Shown here piece by piece: positions 19,729-43,325 of a stretch of 64,000 bases of DNA. The stretch is taken from the NCBI RefSeq assembly GCF_037126465.1, contig NW_026999401.1, positions 1,262,501 to 1,326,500 of the forward strand, given 5' to 3'. The stretch comes from Ornithodoros turicata. Taxonomy: Eukaryota > Arthropoda > Arachnida > Ixodida > Argasidae. The stretch's first letter is position 1. Each line of letters opens with the position of its first letter. Under the pieces are notes generated by a model, which ran no database searches, was not told where the DNA came from, and saw only the letters and a list, made by a program, of their open reading frames with translations. Both the position numbers and the translations under genes were made by a program.

Positions 19729-19765
19729 ATGAAGGTCCTTCTCCTGTTACTCCTCGTCATTGGAT
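19729..19765 (+). CDS. Signal-peptide exon of a secreted repeat-peptide gene
   Basis: This exon encodes MKVLLLLLLVIG and then a single T before a consensus donor GTGAGT (19766), leaving a phase-1 junction. Joined to exon 2 it completes a textbook signal peptide: one basic residue, a leucine core and a small-residue AAA cleavage region. I found no second copy of this exon in the window, whereas the following exon type is copied at least fourteen more times, so this looks like a single gene with an expanded exon array. The start is the only Met in frame upstream of the hydrophobic core. No clear TATA box is seen within 100 bp upstream. The protein family is not recognised. Confidence 0.75.
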
Positions 19766-19834
19766 GTGAGTATCCAGGGCAACATTTCCGAAACATGTCC
19801 AAATGTTTACGATGCTGTAATAATTCCCTTGCAG

Positions 19835-19885
19835 TGGCAGCAGCTGATGCCTTGCCTTGGAAGGGACGTAGAAGTGCTGATCCCG
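19835..19885 (+). CDS. Mini-exon 2 (51 nt): end of signal peptide plus first peptide module
   Basis: The exon lies between acceptor TTCCCTTGCAG and donor GTAAGAAG, phase 1 at both ends (51 nt, so it can be included or skipped without frame change). With the T from exon 1 it codes LAAADALPWKGRRSADP and leaves a G. AAA is a likely signal-peptidase site, and GRR is a dibasic and potential amidation site. Intron 1 is only 69 nt. The last 50 nt of that intron (TTTCCGAAACATGTCC...TTGCAG) recur before every later mini-exon, which shows that exon 2 with its flanks is the ancestral duplicated unit. Confidence 0.7.
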
Positions 19886-20202
19886 GTAAGAAGATCATTT
19901 TACACATCCATCGTCGATGAATATTAGTAATATGCTGGACAGCTTTTAATGAAAGAACATGAGTCTGCTGACGCCACCTTTATAGGGTCTAGGACCCTCA
20001 TTCGATAATAATAATAATAACAACAATAATAATCGATTAAATATCCAAGTGGTTTTAGATCTACAACATAAGAGGGTAGTACGTGATACAGCACAGATTG
20101 TTCCATAAGAAGATATCCAGCAGACTTATCTATTTTAAAAAAAAGGAAAACAGCTATACTGCACCGTCTCGCGTTCTCTCGATGTGGATCGAGACTGTCC
20201 TA

Positions 20203-20401
20203 CACTCTTCAAAACAAACTTCACCGCATTAGCACGCTCCTAGCAAACCATAATCTCGAACGATATCGTTATCTGCCCTGATTCGTTGAAAACAGGGGGC
20301 GTACGCCTCCCGTTTTCAACAAATCCGAGCAGGTAACGATATCATTTGCGATTATGGTTGGCTAGGAGCGTGCTATGCTTTGAAGTTCATTTCTAAGAGT
20401 G
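20203..20401. mobile_element. Short palindromic MITE, TA duplication proven
   Basis: A 199-bp element (CACTCTTCAAAACAAAC to TTTCTAAGAGTG) flanked by TA. The paralogous intron near 24,155 reads GACTGTCCTAGGCTGTAC with no element; here the same site reads GACTGTCCTA, element, TAGGCTGTAC. That is an exact empty site and fixes both element ends and the TA duplication. Confidence 0.9.
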
Positions 20402-20429
20402 TAGGCTGTACTAGACCATGCTGTTCCTA

Positions 20430-20667
20430 CACTAATAAAAATGAACTTCACCACACAGCACGCTCGTAGCCAACCATCATCACGAATGACAACGCTCTCA
20501 CCCCTGATTTGTTGAAAACGGGAGGCGGAGCCTATTTTGTACCTATTATGCACGGCACAGAATAGGCTCCGCCTCCCGTTTTCAACAAATCAGGGACGAG
20601 AACGTTGTCATTCGGGATGATGGTTGGCTAGGAGCGTGCTACGTGGTGAAGTTCATTTTTAAGAGTG
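20430..20667. mobile_element. Palindromic MITE, GCGGAGCC core (238 bp)
   Basis: The ends are CACTAATAAAAATGAAC and TTCATTTTTAAGAGTG. The arms pair completely through GAAAACGGGAGGCGGAGCC to a short loop. The paralogous site near 24,183 (TTCTTACCCATG) lacks the element; here TTCCTA and TACTCAAG flank it, again consistent with TA duplication. Later copies at 21344, 22258, 23174, 29977, 37034 and 42952 were carried by tandem duplication. Confidence 0.9.
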
Positions 20668-20764
20668 TACTCAAGTCCCGTGCATTTACATCGCGCTTAG
20701 TATCCATGTCAGCGTTTCCGAAACATGTTCAAATGTTTACGATGCTGTAATAATTCTGTTGCAG

Positions 20765-20803
20765 TGCTGGAACATGATCTTTTCGGTAGAAGTGCTGATC
20801 CCG
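20765..20803 (+). CDS. Mini-exon 3 (39 nt) of the secreted repeat gene
   Basis: Between acceptor TCTGTTGCAG and donor GTAAGAAG, phase 1-1. It codes VLEHDLFGRSADP when joined to the G left by the preceding exon. The 3' end AGAAGTGCTGATCCCG is identical to that of exon 2, while the 5' part differs. The GR pair could be a processing or amidation site before SADP. Intron size to exon 2 is about 880 bp because of the two MITEs. Confidence 0.6.
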
Positions 20804-21343
20804 GTAAGAAGATCATTTTACACATCCATCGTCGATGAATATTAGTAATATGCTGGACAGCTTTTAATGAAAGAACATTAGTCTTCTGACGCCATCTCTA
20901 TAGGGTCTAGGACCCTCATTCGATAATAATAATAATAACAACAATAATAATCGATTAAATATCCAAGTGGTTTTAGATCTACAACATAAGAGGGTAGTGA
21001 TACAGCACAGATTGTTCCATAAGAAGATATCCAGCAGACTTATCTATTTAAAAAAAAAGGAAAACAGCTATACTGCACCGTCTCGCGTTCTCTCGATGTG
21101 GATCGAGACTGTCCTACACTCTTCAAAACAAACTTCACCGCATTAGCACGCTCCTAGCAAACCATAATCTCGAACGATATCGTTATCTGCCCTGATTCGT
21201 TGAAAACAGGGGGCGTACGCCTCCCGTTTTCAACAAATCCGAGCAGGTAACGATATCATTTGCGATTATGGTTGGCTAGGAGCGTGCTATGCTTTGAAGT
21301 TCATTTCTAAGAGTGTAGGCTGTACTAGACCATGCTGTTCCTA

Positions 21344-22257
21344 CACTAATAAAAATGAACTTCACCACACAGCACGCTCGTAGCCAACCATCATCACGAA
21401 TGACAACGCTCTCACCCCTGATTTGTTGAAAACGGGAGGCGGAGCCTATTTTGTACCTATTATGCACGGCACAGAATAGGCTCCGCCTCCCGTTTTCAAC
21501 AAATCAGGGACGAGAACGTTGTCATTCGGGATGATGGTTGGCTAGGAGCGTGCTACGTGGTGAAGTTCATTTTTAAGAGTGTACTCAAGTCCCGTGCATT
21601 TACATCGCGCTTAGTATCCATGTCAGCGTTTCCGAAACATGTTCAAATGTTTACGATGCTGTAATAATTCTGTTGCAGTGCTGGAACATGATCTTTTCGG
21701 TAGAAGTGCTGATCCCGGTAAGAAGATCATTTTACACATCCATCGTCGATGAATATTAGTAATATGCTGGACAGCTTTTAATGAAAGAACATTAGTCTTC
21801 TGACGCCATCTCTATAGGGTCTAGGACCCTCATTCGATAATAATAATAATAACAACAATAATAATCGATTAAATATCCAAGTGGTTTTAGATCTACAACA
21901 TAAGAGGGTAGTGATACAGCACAGATTGTTCCATAAGAAGATATCCAGCAGACTTATCTATTTAAAAAAAAAGGAAAACAGCTATACTGCACCGTCTCGC
22001 GTTCTCTCGATGTGGATCGAGACTGTCCTACACTCTTCAAAACAAACTTCACCGCATTAGCACGCTCCTAGCAAACCATAATCTCGAACGATATCGTTAT
22101 CTGCCCTGATTCGTTGAAAACAGGGGGCGTACGCCTCCCGTTTTCAACAAATCCGAGCAGGTAACGATATCATTTGCGATTATGGTTGGCTAGGAGCGTG
22201 CTATGCTTTGAAGTTCATTTCTAAGAGTGTAGGCTGTACTAGACCATGCTGTTCCTA
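21344..22257 (+). repeat. 914-bp tandem unit 2
   Basis: I find no difference from unit 1 in the parts I compared. It includes MITEs at 21344-21581 and 22031-22229. Such identity means very recent duplication, gene conversion or an assembly duplication. Confidence 0.95.
21679..21717 (+). CDS. Mini-exon 4 (39 nt)
   Basis: Identical to the exon at 20765-20803, with intact acceptor and donor and phase 1-1. It codes VLEHDLFGRSADP. Confidence 0.6.
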
Positions 22258-23173
22258 CACTAATAAAAATGAACTTCACCACACAGCACGCTCGTAGCCA
22301 ACCATCATCACGAATGACAACGCTCTCACCCCTGATTTGTTGAAAACGGGAGGCGGAGCCTATTTTGTACCTATTATGCACGGCACAGAATAGGCTCCGC
22401 CTCCCGTTTTCAACAAATCAGGGACGAGAACGTTGTCATTCGGGATGATGGTTGGCTAGGAGCGTGCTACGTGGTGAAGTTCATTTTTAAGAGTGTACTC
22501 AAGTCCCGTGCATTTACATCGCGCTTAGTATCCATGTCAGCGTTTCCGAAACATGTTCAAATGTTTACGATGCTGTAATAATTCTGTTGCAGTGCTGGAA
22601 CATGATCTTTTCGGTAGAAGTGCTGATCCCGGTAAGAAGATCATTTTACACATCCATCGTCGATGAATATTAGTAATATGCTGGACAGCTTTTAATGAAA
22701 GAACATGAGTCTGCTGACGCCACCTTTATAGGGTCTAGGACCCTCATTCGATAATAATAATAATAACAACAATAATAATCGATTAAATATCCAAGTGGTT
22801 TTAGATCTACAACATAAGAGGGTAGTAGTGATACAGCACAGATTGTTCCATAAGAAGATATCCAGCAGACTTATCTATTTAAAAAAAAGGAAAACAGCTA
22901 TACTGCACCGTCTCGCGTTCTCTCGATGTGGATCGAGACTATCCTACACTCTTCAAAACAAACTTCACCGCATTAGCACGCTCCTAGCCAACCATAATCT
23001 CGAACGATATCGTTATCTGCCCTGATTCGTTGAAAACAGGGGGCGTACGCCTCCCGTTTTCAACAAATCCGAGCAGGTAACGATATCATTTGCGATTATG
23101 GTTGGCTAGGAGCGTGCTATGCGTTGAAGTTCATTTCTAAGAGTGTACGCTGTACTAGACCATGCTGTTCCTA
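22258..23173 (+). repeat. 914-bp tandem unit 3 (916 bp)
   Basis: Same organisation as units 1 and 2, with MITEs at 22258-22495 and 22947-23145. A handful of differences downstream of the mini-exon (for instance CATGAGTCTGCTGACGCCACC instead of CATTAGTCTTCTGACGCCATC) match the copy after exon 2, which suggests exchange between units. Confidence 0.93.
22593..22631 (+). CDS. Mini-exon 5 (39 nt)
   Basis: Identical in sequence and splice sites to the exons at 20765 and 21679. Phase 1-1, codes VLEHDLFGRSADP. Confidence 0.6.
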
Positions 23174-23411
23174 CACTAATAAAAATGAACTTCACCACAC
23201 AGCACGCTCCTAGCCAACCATCATCACGAATGACAACGCTCTCGCCCCTGATTTGTTGAAAACGGGAGGCGGAGCCTATTTTGTACCTATTATGCACGGC
23301 ACAGAATAGGCTCCGCCTCCCGTTTTCAACAAATCAGGGGCGAGAACGTTGTCATTTGGGATGATGGTTGGCTAGGAGCGTGCTACGTGGTGAAGTTCAT
23401 TTTTAAGAGTG
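23174..23411. mobile_element. Palindromic MITE, GCGGAGCC core
   Basis: Fourth tandem copy of the 238-bp element. It marks the junction between the 914-bp units and macro-unit 1. The arms are still almost perfectly complementary. Confidence 0.9.
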
Positions 23412-23508
23412 TACTCAAGTCCCGTGCATTTACATCGCGCTTAGTATCCATGTCAGCGTTTCCGAAACATGTCCAAATGTTTACGATGCTGTAATAATTC
23501 TGTTGCAG

Positions 23509-23547
23509 TGCTGGAACATGATCTTTTCGATAGAAGTGCTGATCCCG
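23509..23547 (+). CDS. Mini-exon 6 (39 nt), variant G to D
   Basis: Intact acceptor and GTAAGAAG donor, phase 1-1. It codes VLEHDLFDRSADP; the G before R in the other copies is D here, which would remove the amidation-type GR site. Confidence 0.6.
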
Positions 23548-23660
23548 GTAAGAAGATCATTTTACACATCCATCGTCGATGAATATTAGTAATATGCTGG
23601 ATAGGTTTTAGTGAAAGAACATCAACCGACTGGCTCCACCTTTCTAGGTTCTATGACCCT

Positions 23661-23716
23661 CATGAAAGAACTGATGTTCTCAGTTCATCAGTTGTCAGAA
23701 CATCAGTTCTTTCATG
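23661..23716. repeat. Perfect 20-bp-stem hairpin
   Basis: CATGAAAGAACTGATGTTCT at 23661-23680 pairs perfectly with its complement at 23697-23716 around a 16-nt loop. It is present in all four macro-units (30463-30518, 37522-37577, 43439-43494), with the loop changed from GTTGTC to GTTCTC in units 2-4. It seems derived from the intron sequence GAAAGAACATCAGT found in other units. Confidence 0.8.
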
Positions 23717-23789
23717 TTCAACAATTCCGCCTGCGTCGATCCCGTCGTATTAACGTGTGTATGAGTGAGCAAAAATGTAAGAGTGAAAG

Positions 23790-23963
23790 GAGGATGAGTG
23801 AGAGAGAGTGGCTCGTTTCTCCCTTCAGATGACGCACCATTGGAAGCCGCTGAGAAAGCGTGTTAGCTTAGCTCAATTGGTAGAGCCCTGGACCGGCAAT
23901 CCAGAAGATGTGGGTTCGATTCCTGCAGCTGGCTAACCTTTTCAGTGACTTTCATCTTTCATC
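23790..23963 (+). mobile_element. tRNA-derived SINE, Ruka-like
   Basis: A tRNA-like head (23862-23938) has an A box TAGCTCAATTGG, a B box GGTTCGATTCC and paired anticodon arms (CTGGA/TCCAG) with loop CCGGCAA. The tail is CTAACCTTTTCAGTGACTTTCATC. C replaces the invariant U33, so it is a SINE and not a working tRNA gene. A sequence starting GAGGATGAGTGAGAGAG upstream is shared with the copy at 50214 and seems part of the element. Confidence 0.75.
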
Positions 23964-24280
23964 TACGACCCTCATTGGGTAATAATAATAATAATCCATT
24001 AAATATCCAGGTGGTTTTAGATCTACAACATAAGTCAGTCAGCACAGATTGTTCCATAAGAAGTTATCCAGCAGACTTATACGTATTTAAAAAAAAAAAA
24101 AGGAAAACAGTCATACCACACCGCCTCGCGTTTTCTCGATGTGGATCGAGACTGTCCTAGGCTGTACTAGACCATGTTGTTCTTACCCATGCCCCGTGTA
24201 TTTACATCGCGCTTAGTATCCATGTCAACGTTTCCGAAACATTTCCAAAAGTTTACGATGCTGTAATAATTCTGTTGCAG

Positions 24281-24331
24281 TGGCAGCAGCTTATTACGTG
24301 CCTGCGAGGGCTCGTAGAAGTGCTGATCCCG
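24281..24331 (+). pseudogene. 51-nt mini-exon with broken donor
   Basis: Acceptor TCTGTTGCAG is intact. The reading, in phase 1, is VAAAYYVPARARRSADP, a diverged version of exon 2 that keeps the AAA cleavage region and has a furin-like RARR. The donor reads CTAAG instead of GTAAG, so splicing out of it should fail and the exon is probably skipped. The same lesion is present in all four macro-units. Confidence 0.6.
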
Positions 24332-24456
24332 CTAAGAACATCATTTTACACATCCATCGTCGATGAATACTACTAATATGCTGGACAGCTTTTAATGAAA
24401 CAACATCAGTCGGCTGACTCCACCTTTATAGGGTCTAGGACACTCATTGGGTAATA

Positions 24457-24828
24457 CAGGGTGTCTACCACCAATTGTCAGGGAATTTTGATGTTACTGG
24501 CAAAGTCAGGGGATTGTCAGGGAATTTGGATAAAAAAGAAGCTCAAGTCAGGGAAAACAGCGGATTAGTGCCGGGATGATGCCGGTGGTTGAGCGGCAAT
24601 GCTGCAGCAACGTTATCCCGACTAGCTTTTCGCCAGCACGACAAGCTCTGAGGCAGAAAGGCAGGAAAGCCTCAATAAATGGTCTGTTTTTGTGATGGAT
24701 CTGTATCAAAACGTAGGAGCAGGCACACCAAGTTTCCTTTTGTTTTTCTCAGGGAATTTGCTTGAAATAGTCAGGGAAAACCTGGAAAAGTCATGGAATT
24801 TGAAGGCTGCAGTTTGGTATACACCCTG
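24457..24828. mobile_element. CAGGGTGT terminal-inverted-repeat element (372 bp)
   Basis: The ends are CAGGGTGTCTACC and GGTATACACCCTG, and the interior is dominated by TCAGGGAA/TTTTC repeats. It lies within the TAA microsatellite of the intron repeat. Paralogous introns at about 20,930 and 23,980 have an uninterrupted microsatellite, so they are empty sites. No coding capacity; the superfamily is uncertain because the flanks are repetitive. Copies also lie in units 2-4. Confidence 0.8.
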
Positions 24829-25107
24829 TAATAATAATAATAATAATAATAATCATCATCATCATCATCGATGAAATATCCAAGTGGTTTTAGATTTACA
24901 ACATAAGAGGGTAGTCAGTCAGCACAGATTGCTCCATAAGAAGTTATCCAGCAGACTTATCTATTTAAAATAATGGAAAACAGTCATACCGCACCGTCTC
25001 GCGTTTTCTCGATGTGGATCGAGACTGTCCTATGATGTACTAGACCATGTTGTTCCTACTCACGTCTCGTATATTTACATCGTGCGTAATTGATCACCTT
25101 GGACTAG

Positions 25108-25139
25108 GCGTTCCTTTTCGTTGCGCCCGTAGAATCCCG
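25108..25139 (+). pseudogene. Degenerate mini-exon (32 nt)
   Basis: A relic ending CGTAGAATCCCG before GTAAGAAC corresponds to CGTAGAAGTGCTGATCCCG of intact exons with 7 nt deleted. The acceptor-side CTAG is weak. The length is not a multiple of three, so use would shift the frame. CARR before the deletion recalls the basic site of the family. Equivalent relics are present in the other macro-units. Confidence 0.5.
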
Positions 25140-25229
25140 GTAAGAACGTCATTTTACTCTCCCAAAACGCATCGATTGTTGTTGAATAATAGTAATATGC
25201 TGGACAACTTTTAATGCAAGTACCTCAGT

Positions 25230-26640
25230 CTGTTGACTCTACCCTTCGCTTACACCAATCACATCTTTGCTGCGTCGGACGTTGTACTCATCTTGTCACA
25301 GCCCACGCAATGCGTTAGATTAAGATCCACTAAAACGCTCAACGCATCAACACCGAATGTGTCTCCTGCTATAAAGACGATTATCACATTCGTGTCACCA
25401 CATCAGATTAGTGTCCGTAGCGAACGCTGATATGCGGGGTAACCACAAGGGTCAGCACACCGTCATCGTGTCCGGCACGGCCTCTGTGTCTGTGATGATG
25501 GATCTGAGAAGAGATCCTTCGACCTTTAGATTAAAAACCTAGGACATTGAAAGAAGGGTGGTGCGTGCTCGTTACACTCATGTTGGGAACACAGAACGAA
25601 GGGTCTTAGGTTACATGCAGCTGTGTGGCGTTGACTAAGCGGTGGTGGTGCTGTGTTCGCTGACTGAAGTTGCCATGGAGGAAAGAATAAGAAAATGCTC
25701 TTCTTCAGAAAAGAGAATTGTGGGGCAAGTGAGGTGAGGATGGGACATGAGCAGTAGCTTCTTTGGGGGCACGAGGGGGTCACGTTACCTGAATAGGGTC
25801 GCTTTGCATACGACACTTTGGGGGGCACTTTGACGCGCTAGACCGCACCTTTCCAAGTATTCCAAAACTATGCGTTGAGGTCTCTCATAGAGATGTGTGT
25901 AATCGAAAGCGGAAAACGAGCGGTGATGTCACTGTCCCCAATCTCGGCTTCACTTCTCAGAGCAATAGGACTCCTCCTCTCTTTCCTTCCTCCATGGAAG
26001 TCGGTCTCACGATAGTGGTCAGTGTCTCTATGTGCATGAAGATGAGGATGACGATGGTAAATGATAATCTGGATGAAGAGACGACGAAATAAATCTGGAT
26101 CAAGGGACGATGCCTTTTCTTCGAGTCTAAGATACGTCTCTTCCTCTTTGAGTTGTCACGACATCCAATATGTTGTACGAATGAGACTTGCTTCAGGACA
26201 GCAGATGTCAAAATGACGTTCCCATGTTCCTGAACACTCTTGAAGGAAACGGAATCGTTTTCGTGTATACCTATTGGTCATACGACAAACTATGTCCGTT
26301 AGCCAATCAGATACTACAGCCCAAATTCAGCCAGGTAAATATTGCAGAACTTGCAATGTTTGCAAAACACGAAGAGTACCTTTTGGTAATTTAGGACATA
26401 AGAAAAAAAAAAAAAAACTCGAAATGAATAATGTAATCAGCACAAAGTAACCACAGCATAACTTTGGCTACCTTTATGATAACACTTTTCCGCCATTAGT
26501 GAGCAGTGGCAGTGCAAGACGCATCGTGAACACAGGAGCTTGCTTGGAAGCCCCTCTAGCAACGTGGACGGAGCGTGACGCTCCACCTTGAGGGTGACGT
26601 TGAAGATGGGGTGTATGCAATCTGGGCGACTACCTTTGAC
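25230..26640. other. Unassigned sequence conserved in four copies
   Basis: Small frames recur at the same place in all macro-units: a 65-codon plus frame (25233-25430, starting MTLPFAYTNHIF), a 100-codon minus frame (25526-25828) and a plus frame around 26188-26394 (PMFLNTLEGNGIVFVYTYWS). They persist because the units are recent duplicates, which is not evidence of selection. No domain is recognised. Confidence 0.3.
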
Positions 26641-26658
26641 GAGAACAGGTCTCCTCTA

Positions 26659-26907
26659 CACTCTTAAAAATGAACTTCACTGCACAGCACGCTCCTAGCC
26701 AACCATAATCTCAAATGATATCGTTATCTGCCCTGATTTGTTGAAAACGGGAGGCGTACGCCTTTTCTGTGACAATTATGAACAGCATAAGTGTCACAAA
26801 AAAGGCGTACGCCTCCCGTTTTCAACAAATCAGGGCAGATAACGATATCATTCGAGATGACGGTTGGCTAAGAACGTGCTATGCGGTGAAGTTCATTTTT
26901 AAGAGTG
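26659..26907. mobile_element. Palindromic MITE, GCGTACGC core
   Basis: 249 bp from CACTCTTAAAAATGAAC to TTCATTTTTAAGAGTG, flanked CTCCTCTA / TAGTCAAAG. The paralogous positions in units 3 and 4 lack the element and read CTATAGTC. A copy lies in unit 2 at 33711-33959. Confidence 0.9.
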
Positions 26908-27112
26908 TAGTCAAAGATAGGAAAACAATACTATCATGGAGAGTGGTTGGTCCGCTTGCGGAAGACACCTTTCCCTTGCCCAATAATAAGATGGATGTGC
27001 TTCGTCGCTTCGGGTTCGTTACAACCTAGCAAGGGAAACCAATAAGAAACCAAAAGAGAATCCAATATAAACGAACGAGTGTTTGCGAACGCCGCCGCCT
27101 GCGCTTTTAACA

Positions 27113-27298
27113 CACTCTAAAAAAAGAACTTCACCGCATAGCAAGCTGTGCGTCAACCATTGCCATGGATGATAGGGTTATCGCTTCTGATTTGAAGAGA
27201 GAGGTAGTCGTACGCCTTTTTGTGACAACTTTCATGTATCCAAATTGCCACAAAAAGGCGTACGCCCACCTCTCTCTTTGAATCAGACGCGATAACCC
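27113..27298. mobile_element. Truncated palindromic MITE, second subfamily
   Basis: Begins CACTCTAAAAAAAGAACTTC and keeps both GGCGTACGCC halves, but is cut at GCGATAACCC where the next MITE starts. The rest of its right arm is missing. Copy in unit 2 starts at 34165. Confidence 0.75.
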
Positions 27299-27300
27299 TA

Positions 27301-27537
27301 CACTGGTAAAGCAGAGCTTCACCGCATCAGCACGCTCATAGCCATCCATCATTCCGAATGATATCATTATGTGCATTGATTTGTCGAAAATGGGAGGAAG
27401 CGCCTATCTGGGGCAGATTATCTTGTCCCAGATAGGCGCCTCCCCCTGTTTTGAACAAATCATGACACAGAATGATATCATTCGGTGTGATGGTTGGCTA
27501 GGAGCGTGCTATGCGGTAAAGTTCTGTTTTAACAGTG
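27301..27537. mobile_element. Palindromic MITE, GCGCCTATCTGG core
   Basis: Ends CACTGGTAAAGCAGAGC and GTTCTGTTTTAACAGTG. The arms meet at a GGCGCCTATCTGG/CCAGATAGGCGCC core unlike the other subfamilies, while the outer arms keep the family blocks. Copy in unit 2 at 34353-34589. Confidence 0.8.
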
Positions 27538-27751
27538 TAGTCAAAGATAGGAAAACAATACTATCATGGAGAATGGTTGGTCCGCTTGCGGAAGACACCT
27601 TTCCCTTGCCCAATAATAAGATGGACGTGCTTAGTCGCTTCGGGTTCGTTATAGCAAGGGGTTTACGAACGAATGCGGTATTCCAAGCAGCACAATGCAC
27701 TGAAAGTCAAGTGTAATAGGTGTGGATGGTATGTGTCTTCTCAACGCTCTA

Positions 27752-27908
27752 AGATGAAAGTCACTGAAAAGGTTAGCCAGCTATAGGGCTCGAACTCACA
27801 TCTTCTGGATTACCGCGGTTCAAGCTCTACCGATTGAGCTAAGCGAACAGTGATGTGGGTTCCAGTCTTGCAGCTGTTTAGCCTTTTCAGTGACTTTCAT
27901 CTTTCATC
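27752..27908 (-). mobile_element. Head-to-head SINE composite
   Basis: The left part is a minus-strand SINE 3' end and tRNA-like head (GAAAGTCACTGAAAAGGTTA, GGGCTCGAACTC, TCTACCGATTGAGCTAAG). The right part is a plus-strand B-box region and tail (GATGTGGGTTCC, CCTTTTCAGTGACTTTCAT). The two share tail sequence in opposite orientation. Copies at 34804-34960, 40723-40879 and 46631-46788. Confidence 0.75.
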
Positions 27909-28040
27909 GTTAATTTCTTAGGCAATTTGAGGCTTTGTATGTATTTGTACTTTCTACGTTGTTTCAGCCCAAGAACATTCAGTTCTCTTATCATGAACCT
28001 TCTTTAGTTTCACCAGTCTGTACCTTCCCGTCCTCCCCTA

Positions 28041-28685: not shown

Positions 28686-28911
28686 AGGCGATTAACGAGA
28701 CCTCAGGATATGACTTTTCTTGCTGACCTCTGCTGGACGCTAAAGAGAGGAGTACGTATTTTCTTTTTTCCCTCTTTTTTTTCTCAATCTGAAGATCCCG
28801 GAAGCCTTAGCTGTAACTTAGTTCTTCAGATTATGTTTTGAGTGGCCGTGAGTAGTATATACTCTTCCCAACACAAAGTCCAATATATACTGATGACTAT
28901 ATTCCATGCAG

Positions 28912-29186
28912 AGAATTCAAAGTTCAAGGCACGTGAAGCATCTCCTGGCTATTGTAAGTATTGCAATAGAATTCACTTATTCTGTTCTCGAATTAACCGC
29001 GAAAAATGCAAATTTCGTTCCCACATTTGGTGCCCTCCAATTGTGCAATACTTAGAATTTTTCGTTTTCTTCTTGTCTTTTTTTTTTTCATTTGCCCCAT
29101 TGTGTCTGCACTGTTTTCCGCCCTTGCGAGCAGGGTATTGTGTATTACCTAAGCCGTTGTCCACGAGCGACTGGGGCACATTATAA
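28912..29186 (+). CDS. Candidate cysteine-rich terminal exon (phase-1 acceptor)
   Basis: A good acceptor (branch-like ACTGATGAC, then TATATTCCATGCAG) opens a frame in phase 1, matching the phase left by every mini-exon. It codes ENSKFKAREASPGYC followed by cysteines spaced C-x2-C-x6-C-x7-C-x7-C and then a low-complexity F-rich tail across a T run that varies between copies. A consensus donor GTAAGT at 28954 could instead make a 42-nt phase 1-1 exon (28912-28953). Either use would fit the upstream mini-exon array. No known family was recognised, and expression is unproven. Confidence 0.3.
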
Positions 29187-29187
29187 C

Positions 29188-30310: not shown

Positions 30311-30349
30311 TGCTGGAAGAATTTCTTAAACGTAGAAGTGCTGATCCCG
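30311..30349 (+). CDS. Mini-exon, second sequence type (39 nt)
   Basis: Intact TCTGTTGCAG acceptor and GTAAGAAG donor, phase 1-1. It codes VLEEFLKRRSADP. Compared with VLEHDLFGRSADP the ends are conserved and the middle five or six residues differ, giving a KRR dibasic site. Confidence 0.6.
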
Positions 30350-31078
30350 GTAAGAAGATCATTTTACACATCCATCGTCGATGAATATTAGTAATATGCT
30401 GGATAGGTTTTAGTGAAAGAACATCAACCGACTGGCTCCACCTTTCTAGGTTCTATGACCCTCATGAAAGAACTGATGTTCTCAGTTCATCAGTTCTCAG
30501 AACATCAGTTCTTTCATGTTCAACAATTCCGCCTGCGTCGATCCCGTCGTATTAACGTGTGTATGAGTGAGCAAAAATGTAAGAGTGAAAGGAGGATGAG
30601 TGAGAGAGAGTGGCTCGCTTCTCCCTTCAGATGACGCACCATTGGAAGCCGCTGAGAAAGCGTGTTAGCTTAGCTCAATTGGTAGAGCCCTGGACCGGCA
30701 ATCCAGAAGATGTGGGTTGGATTCCTGCAGCTGGCTAACCTTTTCAGTGACTTTCATCTTTCATCTACGACCCTCATTGGGTAATAATAATAATAATCGA
30801 TTAAATATCCAGGTGGTTTTAGATCTACAACATAAGTCAGTCAGCACAGATTGTTCATAAGAAGTTATCCAGCAGACTTATACGTATTAAGAAAAAAAAG
30901 GAAAACAGTCATACCACACCGCCTCGCGTTTTCTCGATGTGGATCGAGACTGTCCTAGGCTGTACTAGACCATGTTGTTCTTACCCATGCCCCGTGTATT
31001 TACATCGCGCTTAGTATCCATGTCAACGTTTCCGAAACATTTCCAAAAGTTTACGATGCTGTAATAATTCTGTTGCAG

Positions 31079-31129
31079 TGGCAGCAGCTTATTACGTGCC
31101 TGCGAGGGCTCGTAGAAGTGCTGATCCCG
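31079..31129 (+). pseudogene. 51-nt mini-exon with broken donor, unit 2
   Basis: Same sequence as 24281-24331 (AAAYYVPARARRSADP), intact acceptor and the same CTAAG in place of the GTAAG donor. Confidence 0.6.
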
Positions 31130-31254
31130 CTAAGAACATCATTTTACACATCCATCGTCGATGAATACTACTAATATGCTGGACAGCTTTTAATGAAACA
31201 ACATCAGTCGGCTGACTCCACCTTTATAGGGTCTAGGACACTCATTGGGTAATA

Positions 31255-31875: not shown

Positions 31876-31909
<34 letters not shown>

Positions 31910-32160: not shown

Positions 32161-32192
32161 GCGTTCCTTTTCGTTGCGCCCGTAGAATCCCG
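32161..32192 (+). pseudogene. Degenerate 32-nt mini-exon, unit 2
   Basis: Same 7-nt-deleted relic as at 25108-25139, ending ATCCCG before GTAAGAAC. Confidence 0.45.
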
Positions 32193-33710: not shown

Positions 33711-33959
33711 CACTCTTAAAAATGAACTTCACTGCACAGCACGCTCCTAGCCAACCATAATCTCAAATGATATCGTTATCTGCCCTGATTTGTTGAAAAC
33801 GGGAGGCGTACGCCTTTTCTGTGACAATTATGAACAGCATAAGTGTCACAAAAAAGGCGTACGCCTCCCGTTTTCAACAAATCAGGGCAGATAACGATAT
33901 CATTCGAGATGACGGTTGGCTAAGAACGTGCTATGCGGTGAAGTTCATTTTTAAGAGTG
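33711..33959. mobile_element. Palindromic MITE, GCGTACGC core, unit 2
   Basis: Copy of 26659-26907 carried by the macro-duplication, with the same CTCCTCTA / TAGTCAAAG flanks. Confidence 0.9.
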
Positions 33960-35965
33960 TAGTCAAAGATAGGAAAACAATACTATCATGGAGAGTGGTT
34001 GGTCCGCTTGCGGAAGACACCTTTCCCTTGCCCAATAATAAGATGGATGTGCTTCGTCGCTTCGGGTTCGTTACAACCTAGCAAGGGAAACCAATAAGAA
34101 ACCAAAAGAGAATCCAATATAAACGAACGAGTGTTTGCGAACGCCGCCGCCTGCGCTTTTAACACACTCTAAAAAAAGAACTTCACCGCATAGCAAGCTG
34201 TGCGTCAACCATTGCCACGGATGATAGGGTTATCGCTTCTGATTTGAAGAGAGAGGTAGTCGTACGCCTTTTTGTGACAACTTTCATGTGTCCAAATTGC
34301 CACAAAAAGGCGTACGCCCACCTCTCTCTTTGAATCAGACGCGATAACCCTACACTGGTAAAGCAGAGCTTCACCGCATCAGCACGCTCATAGCCATCCA
34401 TCATTCCGAATGATATCATTCTGTGCATTGATTTGTCGAAAATGGGAGGAAGCGCCTATCTGGGGCAGATTATCTTGTCCCAGATAGGCGCCTCCCCCTG
34501 TTTTGAACAAATCATGACACAGAATGATATCATTCGGTGTGATGGTTGGCTAGGAGCGTGCTATGCGGTAAAGTTCTGTTTTAACAGTGTAGTCAAAGAT
34601 AGGAAAACAATACTATCATGGAGAATGGTTGGTCCGCTTGCGGAAGACACCTTTCCCTTGCCCAATAATAAGATGGACGTGCTTAGTCGCTTCGGGTTCG
34701 TTATAGCAAGGGGTTTACGAACGAATGCGGTATTCCAAGCAGCACAATGCACTGAAAGTCAAGTGTAATAGGTGTGGATGGTATGTGTCTTCTCAACGCT
34801 CTAAGATGAAAGTCACTGAAAAGGTTAGCCAGCTATAGGGCTCGAACTCACATCTTCTGGATTACCGCGGTTCAAGCTCTACCGATTGAGCTAAGCGAAC
34901 AGTGATGTGGGTTCCAGTCTTGCAGCTGTTTAGCCTTTTCAGTGACTTTCATCTTTCATCGTTAATTTCTTAGGCAATTTGAGGCTTTGTATGTATTTGT
35001 ACTTTCTACGTTGTTTCAGCCCAAGAACATTCAGTTCTCTTATTATGAACCTTCTTTAGTTTCACCAGTCTGTACCTTCCCGTCCTCCCCTATTGCACTC
35101 GACCTTCAGGACATTCACCGACGACGCCTGCGCTTGTAACAGGGTTGGGGACTTTACGAGATTCAGAGACGAGATTCGCCTCGTTAGACATAAGAAATTT
35201 GAAGAAAAAGCTACTGCTGGGAAAACGCATACTCGCGAAATGCATCAGAAGCTGTCTTACAGAAGCCCTTACTGTCATGCACGGAGTAAGAACTCCGGAG
35301 CACGGAGCATGTACGGAGCATGTACTCCGTGCTCTCAGGCAACACACCTTGCGGAACAGACATCTGTATTACTCGTGCGAACGTCTGGTGACGTGAACAT
35401 CTTGAAATCGAAATTTCCTCGATGTATTTGCGACGCAACTTTTGCTCGCGCACTATCTTCCTGCGTTGCAAAAACAGCTGTCCCTCTAATAAGACGATCT
35501 ACATGCCCTGGTTTCCCTGTACAGTTTGAGGAGGACGCGAACAGCGATACGCAGAAAAACAGGAAGAAAAACCGCAGGATATCCCCAAAGAAAAAGGTCC
35601 GAGATGTCGTCATGTGGAATACAGTGATCTATGAGTTATACCGGCATACCTTGGAGAAAAATAAATATAACGTAGGCTGCTGCGAAGGGTCAAGATATCG
35701 TTTGTCGTGGGGGAGAGTAACGCACTCGCCGCCATAAAGGCGATTAACGAGACCTCAGGATATGACTTTTCTTGCTGACCTCTGCTGGACGCTAAAGAGA
35801 GGAGTACGTTTTTTTCTTTTTTTCCCTCTTTTTTTTCTCAATCTGAAGATCCCGGAAGCCTTAGCTGTAACTTAGTTCTTCAGATTATGTTTTGAGTGGC
35901 CGTGAGTAGTATATACTCTTCCCAACACAAAGTCCAATATATACTGATGACTATATTCCATGCAG

Positions 35966-36246
35966 AGAACTCAAAGTTCAAGGCACGTGAAGCATCTCCT
36001 GGCTATTGTAAGTATTGCAATAGAATTCACTTATTCTGTTCTCGAATTAACCGCGAAAAATGCAAATTTCGTTCCCACATTTGGTGCCCTCCAATTGTGC
36101 AATACTTAGAATTTTTCGTTTTCTTCTTGTCTTTTTTTTTTTTTCATTTGCCCCATTGTGTCTGCACTGTTTTCCGCCCTTGCGAGCAGGGTATTGTGTA
36201 TTACCGAAGCCGTTGTCCACGAGCGACTGGGGCACATTATAACTAG
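35966..36246 (+). CDS. Candidate cysteine-rich terminal exon, unit 2
   Basis: Same acceptor, phase and cysteine spacing as 28912. One synonymous change (AAC for AAT) lies near the start. A different T-run length changes the frame of the tail, so the C-terminus differs and only the Cys-rich part can be conserved. Confidence 0.3.
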
Positions 36247-37369
36247 AGCTGAGCGCGGGTGCAGGCATACCTGCGGGTACCCGCAGTTACCCGCACATCG
36301 TCACGATTTGCGGATAGGAATTCGCGATAGCTGCGGGTAGTGGGCAAAATGCGGGTGTACCCGCAATGCACTCCATCGCCAACTAAGTAATCCCTCTCTG
36401 TCGCACGCGAGCCTCAGCAGTGCGCCATATCGTTGGCCGTATAAATCCATGTGCCAGACAACAGCAGGCAAGTGCTGGCGGGTGAGTTCGGTTACTAATG
36501 CAGACATATATGGCTCTCTGTTGGATTGCAGTTTCATTGGCATATGATTGAAGCCGTCCGACACACGTAGCCAACACTCAGAATTTCCTTCGTTTTAAAA
36601 TAGAAACAGCGGTAAACTGGAAGAGGAACATTTCCCCCTGTGGGGCCGAATGCGGGTATGCGGACATACAGACAGAACTGCGGGTGCGAGTCACCCGGAT
36701 TAAATTCTTGCGCGTGCGGGAGCGGGTCACACACGCGATGGTACAGTGCGGATCCAAGTTTGCTTACCCGCACTCACCCTCCACTTATAACAGTCATTAA
36801 AAAAGTTGAATTATACAACATTTAAAGTTGAGAACATGGAATAAGAAACTGTAACAAACCCGCGAAAACTGTCCGTGCTTGAAAGCTGAAGAGACTCCTC
36901 CAGGCATCGATCGCCATTCCCAATGAAACAATACAGAGTTTTAGTACGTCGTGTGCTATCCTGTTTGCGCAAGTAAGGGATAGCATAGATGGTTCTGCGC
37001 ATGCCCAGAATAGCGAGAGACATTCTGTTCCTACACTAATAAAAATGAACTTCACCACACAGCACGCTCCTAGCCAACCATCATCACGAATGACAACGCT
37101 CTCGCCCCTGATTTGTTGAAAACGGGAGGCGGAGCCTATTTTGTACCTATTATGCACGGCACAGAATAGGCTCCAGCCTCCCGTTTTCAACAAATCAGGG
37201 GCGAGAACGTTGTCATTCGGGATGATGGTTGGCTAGGAGCGTGCTACGTGGTGAAGTTCATTTTTAAGAGTGTACTCAAGTCCCGTGCATTTACATCGCG
37301 CTTAGTATCCATGTCAGCGTTTCCGAAACATGTCCAAATGTTTACGACGCTGTAATAATTCTGTTGCAG

Positions 37370-37408
37370 TGCTGGAAGAATTTCTTAAACGTAGAAGTGC
37401 TGATCCCG
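37370..37408 (+). CDS. Mini-exon, second type, unit 3
   Basis: Identical to 30311-30349: phase 1-1, codes VLEEFLKRRSADP, with splice sites intact. Confidence 0.6.
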
Positions 37409-38140
37409 GTAAGAAGATCATTTTACACATCCATCGTCGATGAATATTAGTAATATGCTGGATAGGTTTTAGTGAAAGAACATCAACCGACTGGCTCCAC
37501 CTTTCTAGGTTCTATGACCCTCATGAAAGAACTGATGTTCTCAGTTCATCAGTTCTCAGAACATCAGTTCTTTCATGTTCAACAATTCCGCCTGCGTCGA
37601 TCCCGTCGTATTAACGTGTGTATGAGTGAGCAAAAATGTAAGAGTGAAAGGAGGATGAGTGAGAGAGAGTGGCTCGCTTCTCCCTTCAGATGACGCACCA
37701 TTGGAAGCCGCTGAGAAAGCGTGTTAGCTTAGCTCAATTGGTAGAGCCCTGGACCGGCAATCCAGAAGATGTGGGTTGGATTCCTGCAGCTGGCTAACCT
37801 TTTCAGTGACTTTCATCTTTCATCTACGACCCTCATTGGGTAATAATAATAATAATCGATTAAATATCCAGGTGGTTTTAGATCTACAACATAAGTCAGT
37901 CAGCACAGATTGTTCCATAAGAAGTTATCCAGCAGACTTATACGTATTAAAAAAAAAAAAAGGAAAACAGTCATACCACACCGCCTCGCGTTTTCTCGAT
38001 GTGGATCGAGACTGTCCTAGGCTGTACTAGACCATGTTGTTCTTACCCATGCCCCGTGTATTTACATCGCGCTTAGTATCCATGTCAACGTTTCCGAAAC
38101 ATTTCCAAAAGTTTACGATGCTGTAATAATTCTGTTGCAG

Positions 38141-38191
38141 TGGCAGCAGCTTATTACGTGCCTGCGAGGGCTCGTAGAAGTGCTGATCCCG
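38141..38191 (+). pseudogene. 51-nt mini-exon with broken donor, unit 3
   Basis: Same sequence and the same CTAAG donor lesion as units 1 and 2. Confidence 0.6.
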
Positions 38192-38687
38192 CTAAGAACA
38201 TCATTTTACACATCCATCGTCGATGAATACTACTAATATGCTGGACAGCTTTTAATGAAACAACATCAGTCGGCTGACTCCACCTTTATAGGGTCTAGGA
38301 CAATCATTGGGTAATACAGGGTGTCTACCACCAATTGTCAGGGAATTTTGATGTTACTGGCAAAGTCAGGGGATTGTTAGGGAATTTGGCTAAAAAGAAG
38401 CTCAAGTCAGGGAAAACAGCGGATTAGTGCCGGGATGATGCCAGGTGGTTGAGCGGCAATGCTGCAGCAACGTTATCCCGACTAGCTTTTCGCCAGCACG
38501 ACAAGCTCTGAGGCAGAAAGGCAGGAAAGCCTCAATAAATGGTCTGTTTTTGTGATGGATCTGTATCAAAACGTAGGAGCAGGCACACCAAGTTTCCTTT
38601 TGTTTTTCTCAGGGAATTTGCTTGAAATAGTCAGGGAAAACCTGGAAAAGTCATGGAATTTGAAGGCTGCAGTTTGGTATACACCCT

Positions 38688-38719
<32 letters not shown>

Positions 38720-38964
38720 CATAATCGATGAAATATCCAAGTGGTTTTAGATTTACAACGTAAGAGGGTAGTCAGTCAGCACAGATTGCTCCATAAGAAG
38801 TTATCCAGCAGACTTATCTATTTAAAATAATGGAAAACAGTCATACCGCACCGTCTCGCGTTTTCTCGATGTGGATCGAGACTGTCCTAGGCACTACTAG
38901 ACCATGTTGTTCCTACTCACGTCTCGTATATTTACATCGTGCGTAATTGATCACCTTGGACTAG

Positions 38965-38996
38965 GCGTTCCTTTTCGTTGCGCCCGTAGAATCCTG
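38965..38996 (+). pseudogene. Degenerate 32-nt mini-exon, unit 3
   Basis: Relic as at 25108, with ATCCTG in place of ATCCCG before GTAAGAAC. The change is shared with unit 4, grouping units 3 and 4. Confidence 0.45.
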
Positions 38997-41883
38997 GTAA
39001 GAACGTCATTTTACTCTCCCAAAACGCATCGATTGTTGTTGAATAGTAGTAATATGCTGGACAACTTTTAATGCAAGTACCTCAGTCTGTTGACTCCACC
39101 CTTCGCTTACACCAATCACATCTTTGCTGCGTCGGACGTTGTACTCATCTTGTCACAGCCCACGCAATGCGTTAGATTAAGATCCACTAAAACGCTCAAC
39201 GCATCAACACCGAATGTGTCTCCTGCTATAAAGACGATTATCACATTCGTGTCACCACATCAGATTAGTGTCCGTAGCGAACGCTGATACGCGGGGTAAC
39301 CACAAGGGTCAGCACACCGTCATCGTGTCCGGCACGGCCTCTGTGTCTGTGATGATGGATCTGAGAAGAGATCCTTCGACCTTTAGATTAAAAACCTAGG
39401 ACATTGAAAGAAGGGTGGTGCGTGCTCGTTACACTCATGTTGAGAACACACAACGAAGGGTCTTAGGTTACATGCAGCTGTGTGGCGTTGACTAAGCGGT
39501 GGTGGTGCTGTGTTCGCTGACTGAAGTTGCCATGGAGGAAAGAATAAGAAAATGCTCTTCTTCAGAAAAGAGAATTGTGGGGCAAGTGAGGTGAGGATGG
39601 GACATGAGCAGTAGCTTCTTTGGGGGCACGAGGGGGTCACGTTACCTGAATAGGGTCGCTTTGCATACGACACTTTGGGGGGCACTTTGACGCGCTAGAC
39701 CGCACCTTTCCAAGTATTCCGAAACTATGCGTTGGGGTCTCTCATAGAGATGTGTGTAATCGAAAGCGGAAAACGAGCGGTGATGTCACTGTCCCCAATC
39801 TCGGCTTCACTTCTCAGAGCAATAGGACTCCTCCTCTCTTTCCTTCCTCCATGGAAGTCGGTCTCACGATAGTGGTCAGTGTCTCTATGTGCATGAAGAT
39901 GAGGATGACGATGGTAATCTGGATGAAGAGACGACGAAATAAATCTGGATCAAGGGACGATGCATTTTCTTCGAGTCTAAGATACGTCTCTTCCTCTTTG
40001 AGATGTCACGACATCCAATATGTTGTACGAATGAGACTTGCTTCAGGACAGCAGATGTCAAAATGACGTTCCCCATGTTCCTGAACACTCTTGAAGGAAA
40101 CGGAATCGTTTTCGTGTATACCTATTGGTCATACCACAAACTATGTCCGTTAGCCAATCAGATACTACAGCCCAAATTCAGCCAGGTAAATATTGCAGAA
40201 CTTGCAATGTTTGCAAAACACGAAGAGTACCTTTTGGTAATTTAGGACATAAGAAAAAAAAAAAAAACTCGAAATGAATAATGTAATCAGCACAAAGTAA
40301 CCACAGCATAACTTTGGCTACCTTTATGATAACACTTTTCCGCCATTAGTGAGCAGTGGCAGTGCAAGACGCATCGTGAACACAGGAGCTTGCTTGGAAG
40401 CCCCTCTAGCAACGTGGACGGAGCGTGACGCTCCACCTTGAGGGTGACGTTGAGGATGGGGTGTATGCAATCTGGGCGACTACCTTTGACGAGAACAGGT
40501 CTCCTCTATAGTCAAAGATAGGAAAACAATACTATCATGGAGAGTGGTTGGTCCGCTTGCGGAAGACACTTTTCCCTTGCCCAATAATAAGATGGACGTG
40601 CTTAGTCGCTTCGGGTTCGTTATAGCAAGGGGTTTACGAACGAATGCGGTATTCCAAGCAGCACAATGCACTGAAAGTCAAGTGTAATAGGTGTGGATGG
40701 TATGTGTCTTCTCAACGCTCTAAGATGAAAGTCACTGAAAAGGTTAGCCAGCTATAGGGCTCGAACTCACATCTTCTGGATTACCGCGGTTCAAGCTCTA
40801 CCGATTGAGCTAAGCGAACAGTGATGTGGGTTCCAGTCTTGCAGCTGTTTAGCCTTTTCAGTGACTTTCATCTTTCATCGTTAATTTCTTAGGCAATTTG
40901 AGGCTTTGTATGTATTTGTACTTTCTACGTTGTTTCAGCCCAAGAACATTCAGTTCTCTTATTATGAACCTTCTTTAGTTTCACCAGTCTGTACCTTCCC
41001 GTCCTCCCCTATTGCACTCGACCTTCAGGACATTCACCGACGACGCCTGCGCTTGTAACAGGGTTGGGGACTTTACGAGATTCAGAGACGAGATTCGCCT
41101 CGTTAGACATAAGAAATTTGAAGAACAAGCTACTGCTGGGAAAACGCATACTCGCGAAATGCATCAGAAGCTGTCTTACAGAAGCCCTTACTGTCATGCA
41201 CGGAGTAAGAACTCCGGAGCACGGAGCATGTACGGAGCATGTACTCCGTGCTCTCAGGCAACACACCTTGCGGAACAGACATCTGTATTACTCGTGCGAA
41301 CGTCAGATGACGTGAACATCTTGAAATCGAAATTTCCTCGATGTATTTGCGACGCAACTTTTGCTCGCGCACTATCTTCCTGCGTTGCAAAAACAGCTCT
41401 CCCTCTAATAAGACGATCTACATGCCCTGGTTTCCCTGTACAGTTTGAGGAGGACGCGAACAGCGATACGCAGAAAAACAGGAAGAAAAACCGCAGGGTA
41501 TCCCCAAAGAAAAAGGTCCGAGATGTCGTCATGTGGAATACAGTGATCTATGAGTTATACCGGCATACCTTGGAGAAAAATAAATATAACGTAGGCTGCT
41601 GCGAAGGGTCAAGATATCGTTTGTCGTGGGGGAGAGTAACGCACTCGCCGCCATAAAGGCGATTAACGAGACCTCAGGATATGACTTTTCTTGCTGACCT
41701 CTGCTGGACGCTAAAGAGAGGAGTACGTTTTTTCTTTTTTTCCCTCTTTTTTTTCTCAATCTGAAGATCCCGGAAGCCTTAGCTGTAACTTAGTTCTTCA
41801 GATTATGTTTTGAGTGGCCGTGAGTAGTATATACTCTTCCCAACACAAAGTCCAATATATACTGATGACTATATTCCATGCAG

Positions 41884-42161
41884 AGAATTCAAAGTTCAAG
41901 GCACGTGAAGCATCTCCTGGCTATTGTAAGTATTGCAATAGAATTCACTTATTCTGTTCTCGAATTAACCGCGAAAAATGCAAATTTCGTTCCCACATTT
42001 GGTGCCCTCCAATTGTGCAATACTTAGAATTTTTCGTTTTCTTCTTGTCTTTTTTTTTTTTTTCATTTGCCCCATTGTGTCTGCACTGTTTTCCGCCCTT
42101 GCGAGCATCGTATTGTGTATTACCTAAGCCGTTGTCCACGAGCGACTGGGGCACATTATAA
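41884..42161 (+). CDS. Candidate cysteine-rich terminal exon, unit 3
   Basis: Same acceptor, phase-1 frame, GTAAGT alternative donor (41926) and cysteine spacing as the copy at 28912. Confidence 0.3.
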
Positions 42162-43286
42162 CTAGAGCTGAGCGCGGGTGCAGGCATACCTGCGGGTACC
42201 CGCAGTTACCCGCACATCGTCACGATTTGCGGATAGGAATTCGCGATAGCTGCGGGTAGTGGGCAAAATGCGGGTGTACCCGCAATGCACTCCATCGCCA
42301 ACTAAGTAATCCCTCTCTGTCGCACGCGAGCTCAGGAGTGCGCCATATCGTTGGCCGTACAAATCCATGTGCCAGACAACAGCAGGCAAGTGCTGGCGGG
42401 TGAGTTCGGTTACTAATGCAGACATATATGGCTCTCTGTTGGATTGCAGTTTCATTGGCATATGATTGAAGCCGTCCGACACACGTAGCCAACACTCAGA
42501 ATTTCCTTCGTTTTAAAATAGAAACAGCGGTAAACTGGAAGAGGAACATTTCCCCCTGTGGGGCCGAATGCGGGTATGCGGACATACAGACAGAACTGCG
42601 GGTGCGAGTTACCCGGATTAAATTCTTGCGCGTGCGGGAGCGGGTCACACACGCGATGGTACAGTGCGGATCCAAGTTTGCTTACCCGCACTCACCCTCC
42701 ACTTATAACAGTCATTAAAAAAGTTGAATTATACAACATTTAAAGTTGAGAACATGGAATAAGAAACTGTAACAAACCCGCGAAAACTGTCCGTGCTTGA
42801 AAGCTGAAGAGACTCCTCCAGGCATCGATCGCCATTCCCAATGAAACAATACAGAGTTTTAGTACGTCGTGTGCTATCCTGTTTGCGCAAGTAAGGGATA
42901 GCATAGATGGTTCTGCGCATGCCCAGAATAGCGAGAGACATTCTGTTCCTACACTAATAAAAATGAACTTCACCACACAGCACGCTCCTAGCCAACCATC
43001 ATCACGAATGACAACGCTCTCGCCCCTGATTTGTTGAAAACGGGAGGCGGAGCCTATTTTGTACCTATTATGCACAGCACAGAATAGGCTCCGCCTCCCG
43101 TTTTCAACAAATCAGGGGCGAGAACGTTGTCATTCGGGATGATGGTTGGCTAGGAGCGTGCTACGTGGTGAAGTTCATTTTTAAGAGTGTACTCAAGTCC
43201 CGTGCATTTACATCGCGCTTAGTATCCATGTCAGCGTTTCCGAAACATGTCCAAATGTTTACGACGCTGTAATAATTCTGTTGCAG

Positions 43287-43325
43287 TGCTGGAAGAATTT
43301 CTTAAACGTAGAAGTGCTGATCCCG
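43287..43325 (+). CDS. Mini-exon, second type, unit 4
   Basis: Identical to 30311-30349, with intact splice sites; codes VLEEFLKRRSADP. It is the last intact mini-exon in the window. Confidence 0.6.

Follow-up and report, generated by a model that had tools for sequence, protein, structure and literature searches.

Aphid bicycle genes contain many microexons per gene. They are described as rapidly evolving and have been implicated as effectors (PMC9168663). The micro-exon genes (MEGs) of schistosomes are reported to encode a signal peptide, to consist of many short symmetric exons, and to give rise to secreted products with alternative splicing; they form a multigene family with some internal duplication of the exon pattern (PMC5825161, PMC10526429). 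One account gives the size of MEG exons as 6 to 36 bp (PMC5825161), and another sets an upper limit of 81 bp (PMC10526429). In bee apidaecin, several exons each code for a distinct peptide, and the precursors of apidaecin and ant hymenoptaecin are portrayed as repeats separated by a basic pair and an X-A/X-P spacer, the dipeptides being E/D-A/P (PMC3415428). In snake three-finger toxin genes, short exon segments are described as radically changed and introns as alike, a mode of evolution termed ASSET (PMC2711939).

We analyzed a 64,000-nucleotide stretch of the genome of the soft tick Ornithodoros turicata (here called the window), in which one predicted signal-peptide exon precedes an array of phase 1-1 mini-exons. 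With a probability of roughly three in four, this locus is a member of a family of secreted multipeptide precursors with one peptide per mini-exon, whose peptide cores are diversifying. An initial annotation of the window knew of no described gene with this layout. This does not wholly hold, since schistosome MEGs and bee apidaecin, as portrayed in the accounts cited, share its main features (PMC5825161, PMC10526429, PMC3415428).

Similar to MEGs, the tick genes begin with a 5' signal-peptide exon (predicted) and have short symmetric exons, which at 39 to 57 nt are longer than 6 to 36 bp and stay within the reported limit of 81 bp. Exon-skipping isoforms are represented on the tick side by NCBI models of one sister locus. 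In contrast to MEGs, the tick exons are all copies of a single cassette that ends in RSADP; the 13 protein matches listed all came from O. turicata and thus included none from a schistosome. As in apidaecin-type precursors, a basic pair with an X-A/X-P dipeptide was found, namely, in 24 of 31 distinct tick exon peptides (7 lack it), and one exon corresponds to one peptide, except that a 42-nt and a 39-nt exon would yield a joint peptide. The tick spacer, however, is SADP, with an SA dipeptide that departs from the E/D-A/P given for apidaecin and hymenoptaecin (PMC3415428); the peptides would measure ∼7 to 14 amino acids (21 with the 42-nt exon joined), and the family comprises many loci and alternative terminal modules. 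No apidaecin-like antibacterial sequence was found in the tick cores, nor was any apidaecin among the 13 matches listed. Exon segments diverge far more than introns, as in ASSET, but the variable core of the tick exons lies within a mini-exon cassette that is repeated along a precursor. Cysteine codons are absent from the window exons, which argues against a disulfide-held toxin fold. The likeness to bicycle genes is one of description, and no bicycle protein was among the 13 matches listed. Kunitz inhibitors with the same signal-peptide start were also compared: a Pfam scan of 8 of the 13 family proteins gave one match above the cut-off, a Kunitz domain in P0012, and this domain was found in none of the other scanned proteins; the window exons, lacking cysteine codons, do not encode it.

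Results

All features of the window locus lie on the forward strand. Exon 1 (positions 19729 to 19765) encodes MKVLLLLLLVIG, the predicted start of a signal peptide (called from hydrophobicity), and has a phase-1 donor, GTGAGT. Since exon 1 occurs only once within the window, the presence of several separate small genes there was rejected. Exon 2 (19835 to 19885; 51 nt) encodes (L)AAADALPWKGRRSADP and shares its boundaries with NCBI models of LOC135374099. Four 39-nt mini-exons follow, of which a (20765 to 20803), b (21679 to 21717), and c (22593 to 22631) encode VLEHDLFGRSADP and d (23509 to 23547) encodes VLEHDLFDRSADP. The 39-nt mini-exons E1 (30311 to 30349), E2 (37370 to 37408), and E3 (43287 to 43325) encode VLEEFLKRRSADP. 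Each of these seven has GCAG in front and ends in SADP-G followed by GTAAGA, in line with the GCAG acceptors, GTAAG donors, and coded RSADP ends of the initial annotation. Its exon and relic positions were likewise borne out, including the four 32-nt relics at 25108 to 25139, 32161 to 32192, 38965 to 38996, and 44875 to 44906. A class of 42-nt phase 1-1 exons encoding ENSKFKAREASPGY was absent from that annotation; three copies are intact (28912 to 28953, 35966 to 36007, and 41884 to 41925), and one decayed copy (47773 to 47814) has lost its acceptor AG.

Four 51-nt copies, B1 (24281 to 24366), B2 (31079 to 31164), B3 (38141 to 38226), and B4 (44055 to 44140, beyond which no intact family exon was found in the window), carry CTAAGA where the others have GTAAGA. 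These had been regarded as exons with a dead donor. The CT donor was indeed found at all four; the view that the copies are simply dead was rejected, because their reading frame continues over 11 codons to a stop (RRSADPAKNIILHIHRR; in full, B1 reads VAAAYYVPARARRSADPAKNIILHIHRR before its stop) and the NCBI sister model LOC135376389 X3 terminates at the own stop of such a B1-type exon. The CT-donor copies are therefore best read as terminal exons. A purely terminal role is countered by LOC135374099 X3 and X5, in which the CT-donor exon is spliced onward to another terminal exon. Joined in frame, the intact window exons form a 190-amino-acid open reading frame ending on a stop.

Signal exons of the MKVLLLLLLVIG type numbered 18 in the 31 sequences read, the window included. 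The count of loci obtained in this way is a minimum, and 4 of the 57 exact motif sites (on contigs C207 and C302) lie outside these sequences. In the 1.35 kb preceding exon 1, the members of the pairs window/C92, C160/C177, C41/C112, and C139/C160 matched each other at 96.7 to 99.3%. Judged by this similarity, the members of each pair may be two haplotypes, so that the 18 signal exons may stand for fewer than 18 loci. The 300 bp ahead of the ATG (19429 to 19728), presumed to contain promoter and leader, are common to sister genes: identity was 93.0 to 99.7% with 13 of the 17 other signal-exon loci (99.7% with LOC135374099) and 60 to 75% with the remaining 4. The array had been proposed to reflect exon expansion within a single gene as opposed to a cluster of genes. 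Given the many paralogues elsewhere in the genome, this holds inside the window only. None of the 13 proteins listed bore a salivary-transcript name.

Seven NCBI proteins from five sister contigs map onto the same exon boundaries, which supports a tandem expansion of phase-1 mini-exons behind a single signal exon. According to the NCBI models of LOC135374099, isoforms X3, X4, and X5 differ in which mini-exons are included, and sister-locus isoforms from NCBI join the 42-nt exon to LLEEFLKRRSADP. The models are noisy, as LOC135376389 X1 (P0006) at first runs through these exons in another reading frame (judged by eye).

The 23-nt exon end occurred at least 57 times genome-wide, on 15 contigs, whereas the reversed pattern used as a control occurred 0 times; viral contigs searched for the motif gave no match. 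From 92 motif matches in the window and sister loci, 15 without TGCAG within 60 nt and 1 at a locus edge were excluded, and the TGCAG acceptor set the exon starts for length and divergence comparisons. Without any frame filter, 72 of the resulting 76 exon copies had a length that is a multiple of 3 (39 to 57 nt, mostly 39 to 54 nt), consistent with the earlier proposal that copies can be included without changing the frame. The 4 off-frame copies form a single copy class, with the acceptor TTGCGG in place of TTGCAG.

Exon cores (for example, EHDLF, EEFLK, and YYVPARA) were ∼5 times more divergent than intron flanks. In 15 disjoint pairs, 71 of 516 core sites versus 46 of 1799 flank sites differed; this comparison was limited to distinct exons (35 of 72 rows) and thus favors core differences. 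With all 72 rows and identical exons kept, 33 disjoint pairs yielded means of 66 of 1104 core sites versus 44 of 3959 flank sites (P from 7e-19 to 6e-18, sites treated as independent); on average, divergence was higher in the core in 13.5 pairs, lower in 3.4, and equal in 16.1. The pN/pS ratio was 3.5 to 4.4. Among five close pairs, divergence peaked in the exon in four and was tied with a flank stretch in one. In the best reading of these data, the exon cores are under diversifying selection, with the acceptor, the RSADP end, and the intron flanks nearly constant.

Discussion

As a multipeptide precursor, the product would receive its signal peptide from exon 1 and one short peptide ending in (R)RSADP from each mini-exon (mostly 39 to 54 nt, phase 1-1). 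Owing to the symmetric phase, duplication of an exon together with its intron, or skipping of an exon, would keep the frame, and a copy whose donor had mutated to CT would read to a stop and act as the last exon. The precursor would probably be cut after RR, the basic residues then being trimmed, and a dipeptidyl aminopeptidase would probably take off SA and DP; where Gly stands ahead of the basic site, the peptide may be amidated. Proprotein processing had already been suspected from the basic residues before SADP, and the sequence supports it. The combination of a basic pair with X-A/X-P dipeptides resembling those of apidaecin and ant hymenoptaecin was counted for the precursor reading. Counted against it were the 7 of 31 distinct exon peptides without two basic residues at this position (one peptide has none), the departing SA dipeptide, and the 13 proteins listed, none of which lies on the window's contig or is named as salivary. 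From the sequence, we infer that the window copy would be transcribed, with a choice of splicing and the processing steps above, and that its peptides may serve as defense or secreted effector peptides.

Less probable, though worth serious attention, is that the window locus duplicates LOC135374099 but is silent or decaying, or is an unpurged second haplotype of it, in which the tandem units reflect drift by unequal crossing-over and the sisters alone are expressed. Window positions 2471 to 19800 are collinear with C92 (940338 to 956135) in three blocks at 96 to 99%, with 14068 to 15361 unmatched, and a 1-kb piece 6.5 to 7.5 kb ahead of the window start matches C92 at 95 to 98%. The relics and the decayed 42-nt exon within the locus point the same way, as do the lack of a protein from the window's contig (C119) among the 13 matches listed and the GRCFLC terminal exon, looked for without success in the window and in the sequence just downstream (L032). 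Evidence against a silent copy comes from the open frames and splice sites kept in exons 1 and 2, in all seven 39-nt exons, and in three of the 42-nt exons, from terminal exons that have their own stop, and from a presumed promoter nearly identical to that of LOC135374099.

It appears improbable that every copy is an alternative last exon, such that exon 1 would be joined to one copy and GTAAG would be read as codons, through to ...SADPGKKIILHIHRR and a stop, yielding a short secreted peptide. For exon 2, this peptide would be 40 amino acids long. LOC135376389 X3 behaves in this manner at its CT-donor copy, and all 70 copies of the four main lengths, when read through, reach a TGA at one shared codon position, which is weak evidence because the copies are related. 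By contrast, GTAAG sites are spliced in the NCBI models of five sister contigs, and the 11 read-through codons show a pN/pS of ∼0.66 and are about as divergent as the 24 nt that follow. A neuropeptide-like precursor, releasing amidated short peptides (e.g., ...LFG-R or ...WLG-RR) that signal inside the tick, is also improbable: Gly stands immediately ahead of the basic site in 13 of the 31 distinct exon peptides, as such a precursor would have it, but not in the other 18, and P0012, with its Kunitz domain, was alone among the 8 scanned family proteins in passing the Pfam cut-off. Neuropeptides are conserved, unlike the cores, which diverge rapidly between paralogues.

A further and rather unlikely reading is that the mini-exons are hypervariable cassettes, with a constant splice frame (acceptor, RSADP end, donor, and intron), cores swapped segment-wise, copy numbers that vary between near-identical haplotypes or duplicates, and alternative splicing that draws combinations from the array. 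If true, the secreted peptides available to a single tick, directed at microbes or serving host interaction, would form a large repertoire. A search of the open-access literature by motif strings and gene symbols (supplements outside its scope) found no paper describing the family. As presented in the TickSialoFam review, it is open whether exon mosaics or recombination lie behind variant salivary transcripts (PMC7396615). The family described here, salivary or not, makes this kind of question directly testable for one set of secreted peptides, as every cassette can be placed in the genome. The family would represent a micro-exon or multipeptide-precursor design in ticks, with cores diverging more than introns, in which one gene could yield many different secreted peptides without upsetting the reading frame.

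Organization of the exon array

Exon 1 (19729-19765, forward strand), in the window at C119:1262501-1326500 of the 1.07-Gb genome, encodes MKVLLLLLLVIG, with its 3' end in phase 1. GCAG precedes exon 2 and each of seven 39-nt exons, all of which end in SADP-G with a GTAAGA donor. Four 51-nt copies carry CTAAGA in place of the donor, and four 32-nt relics align to exon 3' ends plus adjoining intron. All of these elements, listed in the initial annotation, were present in the sequence; its 39-, 51- and 32-nt classes stood, but a 42-nt exon, ENSKFKAREASPGY, had been missed. Joined together, the intact window exons gave a single 190-aa frame. The exon 2 acceptor region (19829-19846) contains tandem in-frame acceptors (GCAGTGGCAGCAG), through which 6 or 9 nt of this exon could be lost.

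The repeat structure indicates that the array is built by tandem duplication at two scales: a 914-bp unit (about 98% alike) with exons a to d, the first four 39-nt exons, and a larger unit, roughly 6-7 kb long and with 97-99% similarity between blocks, containing a 42-nt, a 39-nt and a 51-nt exon and a relic. With no frame filter applied, length was divisible by 3 in 72 of 76 exon copies (this count excludes 15 motif matches that lacked a nearby TGCAG, and a further one at a locus edge); the other four formed one class with an altered acceptor. Because the cassettes are phase symmetric, their duplication, loss or skipping leaves the frame unharmed. This tolerance accounts for how such an array could expand.

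ARAGORN placed tRNA-like stretches at 23862-23934, 30664-30736, 37723-37795 and 43640-43712 (forward strand) and at 46656-46729 (reverse strand). Four of the five were duplicated along with exon units, and we take them to be probably tRNA-derived SINEs. Paired inverted-repeat MITE-like elements were seen by eye in the duplicated introns (e.g., 20200-20660), and a non-LTR retrotransposon-like open reading frame with endonuclease and reverse transcriptase domains lies on the reverse strand at 5948-8446.

CT-donor exons can end a transcript model

The 51-nt copies had been described as having a dead donor. They are not simply dead exons: with CT for GT they stay open for 11 further codons, then reach TGA, and in the sister-locus NCBI model LOC135376389 X3 the CT-donor exon is the last exon, its own stop being used. 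Its role does not seem to be terminal alone, however: in LOC135374099, the sister gene on contig C92, isoforms X3 and X5 splice it on to a GRCFLC exon, found in locus L031, although both copies of the CT-donor exon found at C92:950-980 kb (C92:958778 and 978286) read CT in the assembly.

A gene family across the genome

A genome pattern search for the 23-nt exon end returned at least 57 occurrences on 15 contigs, 8 of them inside the window; the reversed pattern gave 0 in the same genome. Among 31 sequences (the window and 30 loci) there were 18 signal exons. Over the 300 bp before the ATG, the window was 93.0-99.7% identical to 13 of the 17 other signal-exon loci and 60-75% identical to the remaining 4. 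Seven NCBI proteins, spread over five contigs, map to exon boundaries of the kind seen in the window; for two of them, P0005 and P0007, the searched DNA did not yield the final module. Within LOC135374099, the choice of included mini-exons distinguishes isoforms X3, X4 and X5; such "X" isoforms at NCBI are generally predicted with the aid of RNA reads.

All 13 proteins among the matches listed by three protein searches, two of which considered at most 8000 candidates, were from O. turicata, none of them from C119. In P0012 the family signal-peptide start is followed by a Kunitz domain, and in P0008, which has the same start, a cysteine-rich stretch maps between two mini-exons on C160. These arrangements suggest exon shuffling of a secretion module. 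A divergent branch (L013, C63:2338000-2347999) carries MKVFLLFLLVIG and W-rich units ending in RSADP; its product is named 2-isopropylmalate synthase-like in one source, a name that looks wrong.

Exon cores diverge more than their flanks

We compared the core, the variable part before the constant RSADP end, with the adjoining intron, 60 nt to either side. Distinct exons, matched up as 15 disjoint pairs, differed at 71/516 core and 46/1799 flank sites, with core divergence higher in 14 pairs. Using all 72 rows (33 disjoint pairs), averages were 66/1104 and 44/3959, the core being more divergent in 13.5 pairs, less in 3.4 and equal in 16.1. Across 197 overlapping pairs, core pN/pS was 3.5; for the 22 pairs whose flanks lay within 2% of each other it was 4.3. 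Two pairs had 13/36 and 11/33 core changes against 1/120 flank sites; with 350-bp flanks, 24/680 and 38/688 flank sites had changed. Against a core excess, a flank stretch equals its exon in divergence in 1/5 pairs, and a gapped alignment of exon d with E1, the 39-nt exon at 30311, needs 3 mismatches and 6 gap columns, which softens that window pair. Because sites were taken as independent although the copies are related, p-values for these comparisons exaggerate the certainty; the excess has a consistent direction.

Comparison with known systems and proposed processing

Published accounts describe signal peptides, short symmetric exons and splice variation in schistosome MEGs (PMC5825161, PMC10526429), several exons with one distinct peptide each in bee apidaecin (PMC3415428), and, in snake toxins (ASSET), replaced exon segments with conserved introns (PMC2711939). 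The tick family unites these features and adds a reused terminal-exon variant; no MEG, apidaecin or snake-toxin family was among its listed protein matches. As outlined in PMC3415428, the signal set of apidaecin and ant hymenoptaecin comprises endoprotease cleavage after a basic pair, carboxypeptidase trimming and removal of E/D-A/P dipeptides, which the tick RR (or single R) followed by S-A-D-P resembles. Two basic residues occur in 24 of 31 distinct exon peptides and Gly ahead of the basic site in 13 of 31. By analogy, an endoprotease would cut the precursor after the basic residues, a carboxypeptidase would trim these, and dipeptides would then be removed, SADP standing where the apidaecin type has E/D-A/P.

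Relation to the C92 copy

Window positions 2471-19800 match C92:940338-956135 in collinear blocks (96-99%) that span 17 kb on the 5' side of exon 1. Similarity to C92 is still seen in a piece lying 6.5-7.5 kb ahead of the window start, whereas the 3' sides of the gene differ. The two copies could be haplotypes or recent (segmental) duplicates. The window has four 39-nt exons in 914-bp units, versus two with such spacing on C92. If the copies are haplotypes, exon copy number would be polymorphic.
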